33,547 nt of DNA. Origin: a virus. Positions 13,722 through 24,655 of the stretch are shown in pieces. Numbering within the stretch: the stretch's first letter is position 1; each line of letters begins with the position of its first letter. Below the pieces are notes generated by a model. The model made no database searches. It saw only the letters and a list, made by a program, of their open reading frames with translations, and was not told the origin of the DNA. The translations under genes were made by a program, and so were the position numbers. The stretch spans positions 1-33,547 of IMG/VR virus record IMGVR_UViG_3300027784_000525; one strand, given 5' to 3'.

Positions 13722-16553
13722 GTGCTTACTATTTATCACATAACAGATACGCACATTGATAATAACGATCGGCTTGGTTACGTGCAAACAAGTTATCAGT
13801 GGATCCTTGATAATTGGGAAAACTTGGGATCCTGTATAGTTCTACACAGCGGCGATGTCGTGAACCGGGGCTACAACGAAGAAGAATTTACACTGGCCGA
13901 AGGTGCAATGGATATGCTTTATAATGCTGGCGTGCCGCTGCTTACAGTGCCGGGGAACCACGACTACGATCTTGATAACGATACGGACTGGAGCGCGGCA
14001 ACGCGTGGGCTGGATAACTTTAACGGCAGTTTCGGGCTGGATAACTATAATCAGCAGGCGTGGTTCGGCGGCAGTTACGGCAACGGGGCTGAAAACGTTT
14101 ACTTTTTATTGAGCGAGGGCGGCGAAGATTGGCTGTTTTTAGGCTTGGAATACAGGCCGCGCGATGATACGCTGGCATGGGCTGACGGAATTTTAAAGGA
14201 TTATCCGGATCGCAAAGTGGTTATAATCACCCATGAATACCTTGACGGAGCAGAGGAAGCAATGCGCCGGGCAAGCGGTGAAAAAGTCTGGGAAGATCTG
14301 GTTTATCCGAACGGTAACGTGGATCTGGTGCTCTGTGGGCATTGCTTGGGATCGGTAGAAGGCGGAACGCACACTGACGGCGCGCGGCGCTTTGATTATA
14401 ACAGTGCGAACAGATCGGTCGGGCAGTTTTACCATAACTGGCAGGCGTATTCACATCAAAACAATTTTGAGGATTACATGGGCGATCGCGGCGAGGGCCG
14501 CTTCAGGAAGCATAAATGGGATGAAAATAGCGAAATACAGGTTGAAAGCTTTTGTCCGGAGCACAGCGAAGAAGAAGAAGATTACATGCAGGAATATCTT
14601 ACCAGTGCCCGGCATCAGTTCACATACGATTTTCCTTTGGGGGTGAAACCTTTGCGCGAGTATGATTATGATGTTGACGCAGAAACTTACGATGCACAGG
14701 AGCAGGCTAATGCTGATGACTGGCTTACCGAAGGGCGCGCACGTATTTTGCCGCCGCCGTTCCCTAATCCCGGACAGGCGGGCCTTAAGTTCAGCAGCGT
14801 GAAACGTGCAGCCGCAGAATTTTCAGATGGAACTTACATGGCAGCAAGTGATCCGGTCTTTGGCACAGGTGCCTTTTCGGCAATGCTACTGCTTAAAGTT
14901 CCTACGGAGCCGAGCGTTAATGCTGAAGTTATGGCGACTGCTTTTGGCACGGCAACTCAAGGCGTCCGGCTTTGGGTCAGCACGGCTGGGAATTTAACTT
15001 TCCGCACAGTTTACGGATCAAGCGGAAATTGGAACTTTAGCTGCAGCGTTGAATTTCCTTTTGATGGCCGCTTCCACGTGGTTTATTTAGAATGGACGGG
15101 AAACACTTTTACGAATGGCGCAAAACTTTTTCTCGATGACATGGTTGACCCGGTGAGCGAAGATACCGCGGTGAGCGGCATTACTTCGCACTCGGAGAAT
15201 TTGCACGTGGGCCGGGCGTCCGATCGGGATGACCGTTACTTCCCTGCAGGGTCGCAAGTTGCAGGGCTGGCAGTATTTAATACACGGTTAGGCGAAACCG
15301 AGCGCAGGCGCCATGCGAACTTACTGCTTTCCGGCAAGGAACCTGATTGCCGTGGTTACTGGCGGATGGACGAAGGCAGCGGCTGGAGCGTCTTTAATTA
15401 TGGCGGCGCCGGGGCGGATGGCGATTTTACATTTTACTCCAGTGGCTGGGCGAACGTGGTCGCGCCTGCGACTTGGGTGCAGTTTACGGATCGAGTTTTT
15501 CCGGCACAGGTCGGCGGCCATGCGCTGACAATTATGTTCGAGCTTACTGCTACGCGGCAGCCTGCGGAAGAAAATCAAGAAATTATGGCTACGGTGTTCT
15601 CCACGGCGGATTCTGGGATCCGCTTCTGGATCAGCACGGCTGGGAACCTTTCCTGTTATGCGACTTATGGCACGTCTGGATCGTGGGCGTGGGGCTTGAC
15701 CCACGCGTTAACCTTTAACAACGATCGGAAAATTGTTTGCTTGGTATGGGATGGCTCTACAACGGCGGATCGCGTGCGGCTTTACGTGGACGACATGGAA
15801 ACTCCAGTGGCTGAAGATACTGCAGAAACTTTACACTGGCATAACGAAGATCTGGTTATAGGCCGCGCGGCGGATCGGAACGAAAGATATAGCGATGTTG
15901 AAGTGGCGAATTTAGCAGTTTTTGACCGCGAAATAATGGCAAGTTTACGCGCGCACTATGCTGAAACCTTTGAGGATGGCAATAAATTAAGCGGCACAGA
16001 AACCGGGCTTATACATTATTATCCCATGGATCAGCACGCGGACGGATTTGGCACGGTAAAAGATGATGTTAATAATGCCGATGGCAAGGTTTACGGCGGC
16101 ACGTTCTGGACGCGCAAGTGGCTGTTCTGGCCTGTAATGCCGTTCCGGGAGCCTTATTGGCAGACGGGATATACTAATGGAACCTATAGCTACGTTATAG
16201 GCGATGATGCTGTAACTCCCTATATGGAGCTTGAAGTTAGTGGCAGCGGCAGTCAAATAACTTTACTGACGCACGAACAGATCGATCTTACTGATTATGA
16301 AGCGATCGCGCTGGATCTTGAATATGACGAAGGTGCGGACGCCTCTATATTTGCCGGGCTATGGACGGGCACGAATGAGGAATTTCCGACCCTCGCTTCT
16401 TGGCTAATGTATTATAATCCGCGCAGCTTTGATCGGCGTGTTATTGTTAGCACGGCCGGGATAACGGGAACGCGATACGTGGGAGTTGCACTGCGCGGCA
16501 ATGCTACGGGCACGGGCACGCTTAGAGTGCACGGTTACAGCTTACAAAAATAA
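13722..16553 (+). CDS. Metallophosphoesterase with two LamG-like domains (tail adsorption protein)
   Basis: 943 residues from a GTG 9 bases after AAAGGAG. Residues 1 to about 210 are a calcineurin-type phosphoesterase with the metal ligands in order: DTHID, GDVVN, GNHDYD, THEYLD and GHCLG. Two concanavalin/LamG-like domains follow at about residues 375-520 and 590-745. They are internal duplicates (VRLWVSTAGNLTFRTVYGSS versus IRFWISTAGNLSCYATYGTS; LHVGRASDRDDRY versus LVIGRAADRNERY). A further beta domain ends the protein (IDLTDYEAIALDLEYDEG). In a tail operon this suggests an enzyme that binds cell-wall sugars and hydrolyses a phosphodiester, such as teichoic acid. That substrate is inferred. 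Confidence 0.85.
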   Translation: MLTIYHITDTHIDNNDRLGYVQTSYQWILDNWENLGSCIVLHSGDVVNRGYNEEEFTLAEGAMDMLYNAGVPLLTVPGNHDYDLDNDTDWSAATRGLDNFNGSFGLDNYNQQAWFGGSYGNGAENVYFLLSEGGEDWLFLGLEYRPRDDTLAWADGILKDYPDRKVVIITHEYLDGAEEAMRRASGEKVWEDLVYPNGNVDLVLCGHCLGSVEGGTHTDGARRFDYNSANRSVGQFYHNWQAYSHQNNFEDYMGDRGEGRFRKHKWDENSEIQVESFCPEHSEEEEDYMQEYLTSARHQFTYDFPLGVKPLREYDYDVDAETYDAQEQANADDWLTEGRARILPPPFPNPGQAGLKFSSVKRAAAEFSDGTYMAASDPVFGTGAFSAMLLLKVPTEPSVNAEVMATAFGTATQGVRLWVSTAGNLTFRTVYGSSGNWNFSCSVEFPFDGRFHVVYLEWTGNTFTNGAKLFLDDMVDPVSEDTAVSGITSHSENLHVGRASDRDDRYFPAGSQVAGLAVFNTRLGETERRRHANLLLSGKEPDCRGYWRMDEGSGWSVFNYGGAGADGDFTFYSSGWANVVAPATWVQFTDRVFPAQVGGHALTIMFELTATRQPAEENQEIMATVFSTADSGIRFWISTAGNLSCYATYGTSGSWAWGLTHALTFNNDRKIVCLVWDGSTTADRVRLYVDDMETPVAEDTAETLHWHNEDLVIGRAADRNERYSDVEVANLAVFDREIMASLRAHYAETFEDGNKLSGTETGLIHYYPMDQHADGFGTVKDDVNNADGKVYGGTFWTRKWLFWPVMPFREPYWQTGYTNGTYSYVIGDDAVTPYMELEVSGSGSQITLLTHEQIDLTDYEAIALDLEYDEGADASIFAGLWTGTNEEFPTLASWLMYYNPRSFDRRVIVSTAGITGTRYVGVALRGNATGTGTLRVHGYSLQK

Positions 16554-21116: not shown

Positions 21117-21164
21117 AAATAAAGTTTGGCCTCCCTTCCTGTAACACACTTCCCTTCTCCTGTG

Positions 21165-21195
21165 GCTGTGCAGCAATGCTGCACAGCTTTTTTTT
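21165..21195 (+). terminator. Strong Rho-independent terminator of the late operon
   Basis: GCTGTGCAGC (21165-21174), loop AAT, GCTGCACAGC (21178-21187), then eight T residues. A 10-bp perfect GC-rich stem plus T8 is a textbook terminator. It separates late genes from the hammerhead module. Confidence 0.95.
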
Positions 21196-21237: not shown

Positions 21238-21345
21238 AGACTTTTTGCTGGCAGTAGATGGTAAATGCCTTAACCACGGGCTTTTTCGGCCTCAAAAAGT
21301 TGCAAGTGGATGTCGGGAAAATCGGGTGAAATAAGGGTAAAACGC

Positions 21346-21374
21346 TTTACAAAGGGTCTGATGCATGGTATTAT
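21346..21374 (+). promoter_or_regulatory. Near-consensus extended -10 promoter of the ncRNA/hammerhead module
   Basis: TTTACA at 21346-21351 (5 of 6), a 17-base spacer, and TATTAT at 21369-21374 (5 of 6) preceded by TGG (21366-21368), an extended -10 element. Transcription should start near 21381. Confidence 0.8.
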
Positions 21375-21380
21375 ATAGTT

Positions 21381-21737
21381 GCAAGAGGGAAAGGGAAAAC
21401 AGCAAGACCGAACCTTGAAAACAGAATAGCAGCTGCAAGCCGGGAAACCTTAAGGGCCGGGCACAGCCAAAAGAAAGAGGCTGACGGGAGCAGGAACCGC
21501 GAAACACTGGCAAGGTAAAACGAAGGGCAGCTGCAAGACTGGCGAAAGCCACGGGTGGCGCCGATATAACGCTGGGGAGCCGAGAGGCTTTAAAAGGATA
21601 ACACGGCGCAGGAGCTGCAAGAAGGAGCAGGCGAGGATGGCGGTGGATAGGTAAACAAGACCCCGAAGAAGGCGGCCATTGCAAGGCCGCTTAAGCGAAG
21701 CCGAAATAACCGGGCAGCGGAAACGCTGCCCGTTATA
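21381..21737 (+). ncRNA. Large structured non-coding RNA, ended by hammerhead cleavage
   Basis: No plus-strand ORF with a ribosome site lies between the promoter and 21806. Compact helices with loops typical of folded RNA are visible: CAGCC/GGCTG (21464-21483), TGGC-GAAA-GCCA (21540-21551), AGCC-GAGA-GGCT (21578-21589), and GCGGCC/GGCCGC around ATTGCAA (21672-21690). Stem III of the ribozyme is also capped by GAAA (21720-21723). The motif GCTGCAAG recurs at 21432, 21530 and 21614 (GTTGCAAG at 21378). The 3' end would be set by ribozyme cleavage after 21737. Size and style recall the ornate phage RNAs (GOLLD, ROOL), but I cannot match it to a known class. Confidence 0.7.
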
Positions 21738-21778
21738 CGCTGCAGACTGACCGCTGCGGTGCTGATGAGGCAGGTTAA
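21691..21778 (+). ncRNA. Hammerhead ribozyme A (type II)
   Basis: Core elements in type II order: GCC (21700-21702), GAAA (21703-21706), stem III (TAAC...GGGCAGCG, GAAA loop, CGCTGCCC-GTTA, one bulged C) to 21735, U21736 pairing with A21706, and A21737 as the cleavage nucleotide. Stem I is CGCTGCAG (21738-21745) with CTGCGGTG (21754-21761), eight pairs of which two are wobbles. CTGATGA (21762-21768) and GGC (21769-21771) close stem II with GCC. TTAA at 21691 and 21775 could extend stem II. Every catalytic-core base is present. It sits between the ncRNA and the ribosome site of the amidoligase gene. Confidence 0.93.
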
Positions 21779-21805
21779 AAAAACTTTTAAAGGAGCGTTT
21801 AAAAG

Positions 21806-22636
21806 ATGAAAAAGGAACAGGTTAACGGATTTAACACGGAGCGGACTTTTGGAGTAGAGATTGAGTTTTTAGGACACGCGAACGCAGTGGCCGCAAAGTG
21901 CCGGGCAATGGGCATTGATTGCAGAGTTGAAAACTATAACCACGAAAACCGCGAATGGTGGAAAATAGTTACTGACGCAAGTGTTAACGGAGCCGGAGAA
22001 GGGCTGGAGATTGTGAGCCCGATATTGCACGGCCGCGAAGGGCTGGAAGCAGTTAAAACAGTTTGTGCAGCGTTGGAAGCAGCAGGCGCGACAGTAAATG
22101 TAACATGCGGCCTGCACGTGCATCACGGAGCAGAGGACTTTAACGTTAACAGTTTTAAAAACATTACTTTACTTTATACCCGATACGAAAAAACGATTGA
22201 CAGCCTGATGCCGAAAAGCCGGCGCGGCAGTAATAACACTTACTGCGCAAGTTTGTTTGACTTGCAGCACGCGACCTTTAGCAGCGCGCAGCGCTTTATG
22301 GAATGGATTTACAATGCACGCGATACCGACCAGTTGCTTGACTTTTTTAGCAGGCGCTTTTTAAAGCTGAACCTGCGCGCTTACCGGGCGCACTCGACAG
22401 TAGAGTTTAGGCAGCACAGCGGAACGACAGAAGCCGCGAAAGTTGTTAACTGGATTTTGTTAACGCAAGCAATGGTTAACAAAGCGACAGAGCGCACGGT
22501 GCTGAACCCGGCGAACGTTGACGACAGCTGGAAAAGCTTTAAAAAAGCAGTGGCCTTGACGGGCTACCGCGGAGCGACAGAAGAACTGCAGGCGGTGCAG
22601 CGGTTTTATGGCAAGCGCCGGAAGCAGTTAGCATAA
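21806..22636 (+). CDS. Amidoligase-family enzyme
   Basis: 276 residues behind AAAGGAGC. Motifs follow the glutamine-synthetase-like amidoligase family: FGVEIEF near the N-terminus (metal-binding acidic residues), WKIVTDASVNG, GLEIVSPIL, CGLHVHHG (histidines of the active site), MPKSRRGSNNTYC, and HSTVEFRQHSGTT with N-W-I following. Such enzymes are predicted to form amide or peptide bonds using ATP, for example adding glutamate or other amines to proteins or peptides. The gene lies between hammerheads A and B and contains no GATC, unlike most of the phage. A gamma-glutamylcyclotransferase gene 3 kb downstream is a natural functional partner. Confidence 0.88.
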   Translation: MKKEQVNGFNTERTFGVEIEFLGHANAVAAKCRAMGIDCRVENYNHENREWWKIVTDASVNGAGEGLEIVSPILHGREGLEAVKTVCAALEAAGATVNVTCGLHVHHGAEDFNVNSFKNITLLYTRYEKTIDSLMPKSRRGSNNTYCASLFDLQHATFSSAQRFMEWIYNARDTDQLLDFFSRRFLKLNLRAYRAHSTVEFRQHSGTTEAAKVVNWILLTQAMVNKATERTVLNPANVDDSWKSFKKAVALTGYRGATEELQAVQRFYGKRRKQLA

Positions 22637-22638
22637 CA

Positions 22639-22707
22639 GCCGAAACCGGGCGGAGCAGCAGCGGCCTGCCCGGTATGCAAAGGGTGCCGCCTTTGCACTG
22701 ATGAGGC
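22639..22707 (+). ncRNA. Hammerhead ribozyme B (type II)
   Basis: It starts two bases after the amidoligase stop. GCC (22639-22641) and GAAA (22642-22645) lead into stem III CCGGGC/GCCCGG (22646-22651 with 22668-22673), then U22674 and A22675, with cleavage after A22675. Stem I is TGCAAAGG (22676-22683) with CCTTTGCA (22690-22697), eight Watson-Crick pairs. CTGATGA lies at 22698-22704 and GGC at 22705-22707, closing stem II with GCC. The next ribosome site (CGGGAGG) lies about 25 bases downstream, so a cleaved mRNA keeps its translation signal. Confidence 0.95.
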
Positions 22708-22738
22708 AGGCAGCAAAAAAAAACGGGAGGCGTTAAAT

Positions 22739-23176
22739 ATGGAACTGCAGGGCAAGCTTACCAGCAAGGAAGCGCAGTGGACTTATTTGTTAGCAGGGCG
22801 CGCAGTGGTTACGCTGGAAAATAGCGAAACCGGGAACCGCTTTACTTACAAAGTGAAAGGCTTGGAGAAAGACGATGGAACAATGCTTTATTTTGTGAGT
22901 GTTTTAAGTGGCCACGATAATGACAGCGATTATGCTTATATGGGAACCATATTTGCAGACGGGCGCTTTAAGCTTACAAAGAAAAGCCGGATCAGCGCAG
23001 AAGCTGCGAGCTACAAAGCTTTTTACTGGCTCTACGAAATGCTTAAGCAGGGCAAAGAATTGCCGGAGCAGGTTAACTTTTACCATGCCGGAACCTGCGG
23101 ACGCTGTGGCCGGACTTTAACGGTGCCGGAGAGCATAGAAACTGGGATGGGGCCGCACTGCAGGAACGCGGCCTGA
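22739..23176 (+). CDS. Zinc-finger protein, DUF6011-like
   Basis: 145 residues behind CGGGAGG. The C-terminal ~30 residues hold CGRCGRTLTVPESIETGMGP followed by HC, a C-x2-C ... G.GP.C zinc-binding pattern seen in DUF6011-type phage proteins. The N-terminal ~100 residues have a beta-rich pattern (GNRFTYKVKG, TMLYFVSVLSG, DYAYMGTIFADGRF) and then a helix. Function is unknown; these domains are frequent in phage early operons and may bind nucleic acid. Confidence 0.7.
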   Translation: MELQGKLTSKEAQWTYLLAGRAVVTLENSETGNRFTYKVKGLEKDDGTMLYFVSVLSGHDNDSDYAYMGTIFADGRFKLTKKSRISAEAASYKAFYWLYEMLKQGKELPEQVNFYHAGTCGRCGRTLTVPESIETGMGPHCRNAA

Positions 23177-23205
23177 TAGTTAAAAATAAACGGGAGGTTT
23201 TTACA

Positions 23206-23511
23206 ATGGAAAAAATTTATGACCCTAATAAAAGGCGGATTGAAGTTAACTTTAAGGCTTACCGGGCGGATTACATTGCTGACAACGTGCAGCCCGGCGG
23301 CAATGTTTACGTTTACTTTAACAAAGAAGCTTACATTAAGGAAAAACATGCGCTGATAGCGCGCCTGCAGCATGACCCCGGTGTTGAGGTTAGAGGCTGG
23401 GATCAGGAACTTGAGTGGTATTTAGTGGTTATAAGTGATCACAGGCTGCGACAGCGTGGCGTGAATGAAAGTGCTTGGAGCAGGGCGCAAGAACATAACC
23501 TGTTAGGTTAA
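23206..23511 (+). CDS. Hypothetical early protein
   Basis: 101 residues with CGGGAGG ahead. It is basic, with a mixed alpha/beta pattern (NVYVYFNKEAYIKEKHALIA, YLVVISDHRLRQRGV). I do not recognise a family. It lies in a group of three small genes between hammerheads B and C and would share their processed mRNA. It holds two of the three GATC sites in this module. Confidence 0.7.
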   Translation: MEKIYDPNKRRIEVNFKAYRADYIADNVQPGGNVYVYFNKEAYIKEKHALIARLQHDPGVEVRGWDQELEWYLVVISDHRLRQRGVNESAWSRAQEHNLLG

Positions 23512-23532
23512 AAAAAACAGGAGGTTTTTAAC

Positions 23533-23766
23533 ATGATTAAAATTACATTAGAAACTGGCAAAACATACGAGGCTGAAACTTACGAAAGGCTTATAACAGT
23601 GCTGGCGCGAACCAGTTATTTACAGGAAAGCAAGTTTGACTATATGGCGAACGTGGCGAAGCGCTGCAATATATGGAACGGCGCTGAAATTGAATACCAT
23701 AACGCCGAAAGCTTTATTAAGGAGTTGCAGCGCGTGGGCGTGGTGCAGGAGCTATGGGAAGAATAA
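23533..23766 (+). CDS. Hypothetical early protein
   Basis: 77 residues with CAGGAGG ahead. It begins with a beta hairpin (IKITLETGKTYEAETYE) and ends in a short helical region (YHNAESFIKELQRVGVVQEL). No family is recognised. Its stop codon (23764-23766) touches the first pairing base of hammerhead C, so the 3' end of this mRNA would be the ribozyme product. Confidence 0.75.
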   Translation: MIKITLETGKTYEAETYERLITVLARTSYLQESKFDYMANVAKRCNIWNGAEIEYHNAESFIKELQRVGVVQELWEE

Positions 23767-23827
23767 GCTGAAACCGGGCCGAGTGCCCGGTATGCTGGGA
23801 ACTGGGCGAACCAGCACTGATGAAGCT
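23766..23827 (+). ncRNA. Hammerhead ribozyme C (type II)
   Basis: AGCT (23766-23769) pairs with AGCT (23824-23827) as stem II. GAAA (23770-23773) leads to stem III CCGGGC, loop CGAGT, GCCCGG (23774-23790), then U23791 and A23792; cleavage is after A23792. Stem I is TGCTGG (23793-23798) with CCAGCA (23811-23816) around a 12-base loop. CTGATGA lies at 23817-23823. Stem sequences differ from copies A and B, but the core is identical, so the fold is kept by covariation. It directly follows a stop codon and lies ahead of the AAAGGAGG of the next gene. Confidence 0.95.
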
Positions 23828-23858
23828 GCCCGTTGTATAAAACAAAGGAGGCAATAAT

Positions 23859-24053
23859 ATGAACGGACAAAAAGGATACCACGAAAAGAATTTTAAGGTA
23901 ACATTTACCACGGAGCAGGAAGTTTGGGCGCGTTTACGGGACATGCTTTACCATTATAAGGACGGAACCTTGACAGTTAACGAAAAATTAAAGCCGAAAA
24001 TGCAAGAGCTTGAGGAATTTTTAATTGACAACGATTGCGAATACTTTTGGTAA
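23859..24053 (+). CDS. Hypothetical early protein
   Basis: 64 residues, first gene after hammerhead C, with AAAGGAGG ahead. The sequence is charged with two likely helices (TTEQEVWARLRDMLYHY, EKLKPKMQELEEFLIDNDCE). No family is recognised. It is the last gene of the GATC-poor module; GATC becomes frequent again from 24074. Confidence 0.7.
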   Translation: MNGQKGYHEKNFKVTFTTEQEVWARLRDMLYHYKDGTLTVNEKLKPKMQELEEFLIDNDCEYFW

Positions 24054-24071
24054 AATAAAAGGAGGTGCAGT

Positions 24072-24286: not shown

Positions 24287-24655
24287 ATGTTGATCAAGAC
24301 AGACGAAAGGCTGGCACGAAAGCTTGATAAGTTGGGTGCAGTTACAGCTTACAAAGCAGATCTGGAGCACGCTATTAAGGCGGATCCGGACAGAATTACA
24401 GCGGAAAAGGTTTACTATTTAATGGGCTGGCCGCGCCGATCGATGGGTGAAATTACTAATAGCGAAGCGCGCGAACTGGTGCAGCAGGGCAGGGCGGCTG
24501 CAGTGGCGCCGGATCAGATCGTGGAGCTGGTTTGCCCGTTATGCGAAAATACGGGAATGGTTTTTATGGAAAACGGCGATGAATACGGCTGCGGAGTTTG
24601 TGTTTGGGGCCGGGAGCTTTTGGCCGAAAATAAAGAATACTGGGAGGCGAATTAA
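24287..24655 (+). CDS. Zinc-ribbon-containing early protein
   Basis: 122 residues. The ATG at 24287 is chosen because AAAGGAG lies about 10 bases upstream, although the frame is open further back. Residues about 82-105 contain CPLCENTGMVF and YGCGVC, two C-x2-C pairs that can hold one zinc ion. The N-terminal half is helical (LARKLDKLGAVTAYKADLEH). The role is unknown; zinc ribbons in phage early genes are often nucleic-acid-binding. Confidence 0.75.
   Translation: MLIKTDERLARKLDKLGAVTAYKADLEHAIKADPDRITAEKVYYLMGWPRRSMGEITNSEARELVQQGRAAAVAPDQIVELVCPLCENTGMVFMENGDEYGCGVCVWGRELLAENKEYWEAN

Follow-up and report, generated by a model that had tools for sequence, protein, structure and literature searches.

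The window analysed here, a 33,547-bp sequence that is the whole of IMG/VR virus record IMGVR_UViG_3300027784_000525, carries three type II hammerhead ribozymes in one phage gene cluster that encodes an amidoligase. Judging from the sequence, we think it probable (roughly 0.7) that a single transcript of this cluster would cleave itself into a non-coding RNA (ncRNA), an amidoligase messenger RNA (mRNA), an mRNA with three genes, and a remainder. The ribozyme motifs, their conservation, their covariation, and their placement are direct observations.

Three intact hammerheads and their counterparts in a relative

A scan of the window with our own descriptor found three type II hammerheads and no more. 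All three are on the + strand and lie inside the interval for which the initial annotation had claimed a tandem array of three. The motifs are intact, and shuffling the whole window 300 times (dinucleotide Markov model) gave no type II matches on either strand, so that claim stands. Hammerhead A (21700..21771) is complete, with stem II (GCC/GGC), GAAA, stem III (12 pairs, one bulge), stem I (8 pairs), and CUGAUGA; it is predicted to cut at 21737/21738, between AUA and C. Hammerhead B (22639..22707) starts 2 nucleotides (nt) past the stop codon of the amidoligase gene, and its predicted cut is at 22675/22676, between GUA and U. Hammerhead C (23767..23826) starts directly past a stop codon, has the full core, three stems, and pseudoknot, and is predicted to cut at 23792/23793 (again between GUA and U).

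The closest contig, IMGVR_UViG_3300027784_000769 (the relative, or L001), encodes an amidoligase that is 77% identical to the window's. It also has three type II hammerheads (A′, B′, and C′), and a scan of all 39 kb of it found no other hammerhead of any type. A′ and B′ are at the same places as A and B. All six copies have the invariant core (CUGANGA and GAAA) with an NUH-type cut site (AUA, UUA, GUA, or CUC), and all six have the type II topology, with stems I and III closed and stem II open. Every copy also has a pseudoknot of 4–6 pairs between loop I and the sequence after stem II. (Because MAFFT aligned the six ribozymes poorly, the pairs were verified by explicit assignment.)

At the orthologous sites, the pairing is retained even where the sequence has changed. 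For stem I of hammerhead A, the window has CGCUGCAG/CUGCGGUG and the relative has CAUUGCCG/CGGCAGUG. Similarly, the pseudoknot of A is UGACC/GGUUA in the window and UUAGCC/GGCUAA in the relative, and the pseudoknot of B is UGCC/GGCA in the window and UGGC/GCCA in the relative.

The initial annotation had also suggested that the pieces between the ribozymes could form RNA circles. Ligation into circles would require a hybrid ribozyme, formed by the halves of two neighbours that share stem II. Every unit does have two self-contained half-ribozymes, and in the window, pairing of the stem II strands is possible between all neighbours. However, the A′/B′ and B′/C′ stem II strands of the relative mismatch at the middle of three pairs, so the matching between neighbours was not kept, whereas the cleavage cores were. 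Also, circular or spliced products were sought for the arrays of Perreault et al. 2011 (PMC3088659), and none were found. RNA circles are possible at this locus, but we do not favour them and consider them very improbable.

Placement of the ribozymes and the proposed processing

In all six hammerheads of the window and the relative, the cut is 63–68 nt upstream of the next start codon, and each of these start codons has its own Shine-Dalgarno sequence. According to the initial annotation, the array separates each gene unit from its ribosome site, but the arrangement is the reverse: because the cuts are this far 5′ of the start codons, every gene retains its own Shine-Dalgarno sequence. On the other side, the intergenic ribozymes of both phages start at −1 to +3 nt relative to the stop codon before them. 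Each intergenic ribozyme occupies the gap from one stop codon to the ribosome site of the next gene.

Because every downstream gene has a ribozyme in its 5′ leader, the hammerheads might instead be regulated switches that gate the expression of these genes. But the ribosome site is outside the ribozyme, we noticed no aptamer-like domain in the loops, and the loops vary freely. We think that regulated switches are quite unlikely.

A similar geometry is seen in type II hammerheads from outside these phages. Of 22 such hammerheads (which include copies of the same arrays and are not all independent), 11 adjoin a stop codon (−2 to +5 nt), versus 1.5% of random same-strand positions. Similarly, 15 of the 22 cut 40–75 nt before a start codon with a Shine-Dalgarno sequence, versus 13.5% of random positions.

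The strongest sign of selection is at the stop codon of the amidoligase. We searched IMG/VR more widely by amidoligase alignment and considered the 80 closest loci. The next three loci by score (L137, L138, and L139), whose amidoligases are 44–46% identical to the window's, have two type II hammerheads each. One begins 2 nt past the amidoligase stop codon, and the other precedes a gamma-glutamylcyclotransferase-like gene. Overall, a hammerhead begins 2–3 nt past the amidoligase stop codon in five contigs (the window, the relative, and L137–L139). The gene that follows it varies: it may encode a DUF6011 protein, a homologue of the window's gene at 23533, or a further small protein. That the hammerhead stays at 2–3 nt although the next gene changes suggests that this site is selected. 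A comparative search for hammerheads with amidoligases had been proposed along with the initial annotation; the arrangement is found in two phage lineages and is not absent from relatives.

If we define a tandem array as at least two hammerheads on the same strand that flank phage genes, then arrays are found in the window (three hammerheads), in L093 (three), and in L137–L139 (two each). Other tandem type II arrays are in L125 (three copies, one gene apart), L122 (three), and L123 (two). The L125 array, at 1725–2311 of a short contig, is denser than the window's, with three hammerheads within 590 nt and one for each small gene. The sampled genomes that have type II hammerheads are 7 of 291 from the class of genome G003, 6 of 398 from its phylum, and 4 of 395 from the phylum of genome G002. 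(These counts include G002 and G003 themselves.)

The distribution is patchy, and ribozyme C is at different gene boundaries in the window and the relative. Both would fit with the hammerheads being neutral or selfish inserts that spread among phage genes and are tolerated in the gaps between cistrons. But selection is indicated by the perfect cores in all six copies, by the compensatory changes at orthologous sites, and by the hammerhead being retained at the amidoligase stop codon even though the proteins are about 45% identical, and we noticed no features for mobility. Neutral or selfish inserts seem unlikely to us.

In the processing that we favour, a single transcript would begin at a sigma-70-type promoter (21346..21374, + strand) and span the whole cluster. 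The initial annotation had placed a promoter here, and we do find TTTACA, a 17-nt spacer, and TATTAT, with an extended −10 TG; the relative keeps the hexamers and the 17-nt spacing, and its spacer sequence has diverged. Each hammerhead would fold and cut itself on leaving the polymerase. The first piece would be a structured leader ncRNA of about 357 nt (from an expected start near 21381 to 21737), whose 3′ end would be defined by ribozyme A. The second would be a monocistronic amidoligase mRNA (938 nt, 21738–22675), the third an mRNA for three genes (1,117 nt, 22676–23792), and the fourth the downstream mRNA. These lengths agree with the earlier prediction.

The gene content also agrees with that annotation, which listed an amidoligase and three small genes. 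All of these genes are on the + strand. The amidoligase gene (21806..22636) encodes 276 amino acids (aa) and matches Pfam Amidoligase_2 (PF12224, 1.5e-42) and PHROG 2443. The three-gene piece begins with a DUF6011-domain gene (22739..23176, 145 aa; Pfam PF19474, 2.6e-12; PHROG 20259). It is followed by an open reading frame with a Shine-Dalgarno sequence and no match to a Pfam or PHROG family (23206..23511, 101 aa) and by a small gene with homologues in L093, L137, and L139 (23533..23766, 77 aa; 43–50% identity). The first gene of the downstream piece (23859..24053, 64 aa) has a Shine-Dalgarno sequence, and its start codon is 66 nt past the C cut.

Cleavage could also affect the stability of the pieces. 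Because a type II hammerhead cuts between two closed hairpins (stems III and I), the new 3′ and 5′ ends can each carry a hairpin. The upstream product may end in stem III and the downstream product may begin with stem I, a topology that could protect both ends. With such terminal hairpins, each piece would have its stability and its expression set independently of the others. Also, translation and cleavage may compete, since stem II would have its 5′ strand covered by a ribosome that is completing the upstream gene.

Several observations weigh against this proposal. First, the window's ribozymes share with Rfam's Hammerhead_II family (RF02276) the topology, the core (CUGAUGA...GAAA), an NUH cut site, a short stem II, and the pseudoknot, and B scores 41.3 bits (the cut-off is 37). 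But C scores 32.0 bits, which is under the cut-off, and A, which differs from the family in its long, once-bulged stem III, is missed by the model and is not listed in the search. Second, in single-strand fold predictions, the B region and the 3′ product of B prefer alternative pairings, for the latter in place of the protective end hairpin. Third, C′ precedes the homologue of the window's gene at 24287 and is not directly after the homologue of the gene at 23533, so the gene boundary of C is not strictly conserved. Fourth, no hammerhead was found within the DNA examined for 76 of the 80 closest amidoligase loci, which implies that only two related lineages have the association of hammerheads with amidoligases. 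Nor was there a hammerhead at six distant phage amidoligase loci.

Searches for further close relatives found few. With exact ncRNA patterns and with the DUF6011 protein, just one contig was recovered from IMG/VR; searching phage records with the amidoligase and DUF6011 proteins gave distant matches only; a DNA search with the ncRNA gave a single chance match; and a first scan of the genome collection with the amidoligase gave no match.

We also made a few side observations in these relatives. Where C would be expected in the relative from gene order (6700–6800 of L001), there is a long double hairpin without a hammerhead core. A gamma-glutamylcyclotransferase-like gene is found alongside the amidoligase in several phages (L001 8785–9282, L137 5461–5910, L098, and L100), and the one in L137 has its own hammerhead. 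In the relative contig, positions 15147–15226 of L094 match both ends of the transfer-messenger RNA model over a short stretch (80 nt, 50.1 bits) and could serve as an attachment site for insertion into ssrA.

A conserved leader RNA with a boxA-like element

Between the promoter and ribozyme A are about 320 nt without a conserved reading frame (21381..21699, + strand), which we take to be a structured leader RNA. Aligned to the relative, this stretch shows indels of 1, 4, and 2 nt, which argue against coding. Within it, the block at 21399–21660 is 86.5% identical to L001 at the DNA level, versus 68–73% for the neighbouring genes and about 60% for the promoter region. The fold z-score is −3.0 for 21375–21790, with hammerhead A included. 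RNAalifold found few compensatory changes between the two ncRNA sequences, so we do not claim a structure. No Rfam model matches the leader (up to E = 1), including GOLLD, ROOL, OLE, and other catalogued large RNAs.

Near its 5′ end, the leader contains the 18-mer ACCTTGAAAACAGAATAG (21412..21429, + strand). The exact 18-mer is also found 122–195 nt upstream of the start of 16S ribosomal RNA (rRNA) at six genome loci, as well as at many contig ends of the sort caused by rRNA operons. (Many other matches are in open reading frames or appear to be due to chance; we used only the matches upstream of 16S.) The 18-mer resembles the boxA of Firmicutes rRNA. Since it is shared with rRNA leaders and is boxA-like, a role for this element in antitermination is plausible. 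We rejected the idea that hammerhead arrays are generally accompanied by a boxA-like element, since it is absent near the other hammerhead loci that we examined. The sole exception is one Bacteroidaceae contig that was itself found through this pattern.

The 18-mer also heads apparently non-coding stretches elsewhere (L010, L013, L063, L081, L055, L011, and L024). These include a pemK RNA in Ruminococcus (L010, L013, and L063), which the 18-mer precedes, a repeated ncRNA-like stretch (L055), and a cyanobacterial transfer RNA array (L011). The 18-mer may mark antiterminated untranslated RNAs of mobile elements.

The conservation of the leader raises another explanation, namely that A is the key ribozyme, with B and C of lesser importance. 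A would then generate the mature 3′ end of an RNA that acts in trans or in antitermination. No other stretch of the locus is as conserved as the ncRNA, which contains the boxA-like 18-mer from rRNA leaders and has A directly at its 3′ end in both phages. However, upstream of the amidoligase in L137–L139, we found neither the boxA-like 18-mer nor a hammerhead, and yet these loci retain the hammerhead after the amidoligase. This implies that B-type sites are maintained without the ncRNA. A primary role for A is partly compatible with processing of the whole transcript; as the explanation for the locus, we consider it credible but doubtful. More speculatively, though we think it unlikely, this phage locus might mimic an rRNA operon. 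It would combine a promoter and a conserved structured RNA with a boxA-like antitermination element that rRNA leaders share, and hammerheads would do the work of RNase III, freeing that RNA and splitting the antiterminated transcript into separate messages.

Upstream of the promoter, a 22-nt element (AATGCCTTAACCACGGGCTTTT, 21264..21285, + strand) is identical in L001, and among viral contigs the exact string is found only there. It lies 60–80 nt 5′ of the promoter, and its surroundings are only about 58% alike, versus no change in the element. It is possibly an operator. Farther upstream is the intrinsic terminator of the lysis-side unit (21164..21188, + strand), an 11-pair stem followed by a T run; the relative also has a terminator-like hairpin and T run (near 4297 of L001). 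Elsewhere in the window are tail, primase, and helicase genes. The closest counterpart of the primase is from a Thermoanaerobacterium phage (43.7%), which suggests a host among the Firmicutes.

Relation to known hammerhead arrays

Clustered hammerheads were found to flank genes or blocks of genes in prophages of Clostridium scindens, Azorhizobium caulinodans, and Agrobacterium tumefaciens by Perreault et al. 2011 (PMC3088659). They also found the type II form and its pseudoknot, demonstrated cleavage of three arrays in vitro and of one in E. coli, and proposed processing into operon- or gene-length mRNAs. Given these arrays and this proposal, the window's array adds an example to a known kind. 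Of the initial annotation's view that the locus is an mRNA-processing system that partitions the transcript, what remains is the partitioning, which is supported by the anatomy, the conservation, the covarying helices and pseudoknots, and the fixed place between stop codon and ribosome site; the system itself is not new. As in the arrays of PMC3088659, several hammerheads (there of types I, II, or III) flank single genes or short blocks in one phage transcript, and as in the type II ribozymes described there, loop I forms a pseudoknot with the 3′ tail. Unlike in those arrays, the window's first ribozyme comes after a conserved leader ncRNA that contains an element like that of rRNA leaders, and in two phage lineages an amidoligase gene goes with one of the sites. 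We did not find this association with amidoligases in the literature that we searched.

Other known systems are less similar. In VIPR arrays (described in a preprint, PMC13142463), hammerheads are also interspersed between RNA units, but the window's units are protein genes, and neither strand of the window has a run of four or more VIPR-type GGY/NN repeats. In retrozymes and viroid-like circular RNAs (PMC7761336, PMC4918200), hammerheads also recur at distances of several hundred nt. But those are built from a repeated unit with matching half-ribozymes at both ends, while the window's units are genes of a DNA phage that are not repeats of each other, and the half-ribozymes of neighbours in L001 do not all match.

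A 2017 review (PMC6155905) noted that hammerheads flank small phage-linked open reading frames and called their role in bacteria and phages an open question. Tandem hammerhead arrays in phages were already known; what this locus adds is the association with amidoligases and the conserved leader RNA, which is not catalogued. The 5′ part of that RNA bears a sequence used in rRNA leaders. The fixed geometry of stop codon, cut, and ribosome site recurs in unrelated loci. With a conserved array, a defined promoter, and a site at the amidoligase stop codon in two phage lineages, this locus makes the idea of mRNA processing by phage hammerheads testable.

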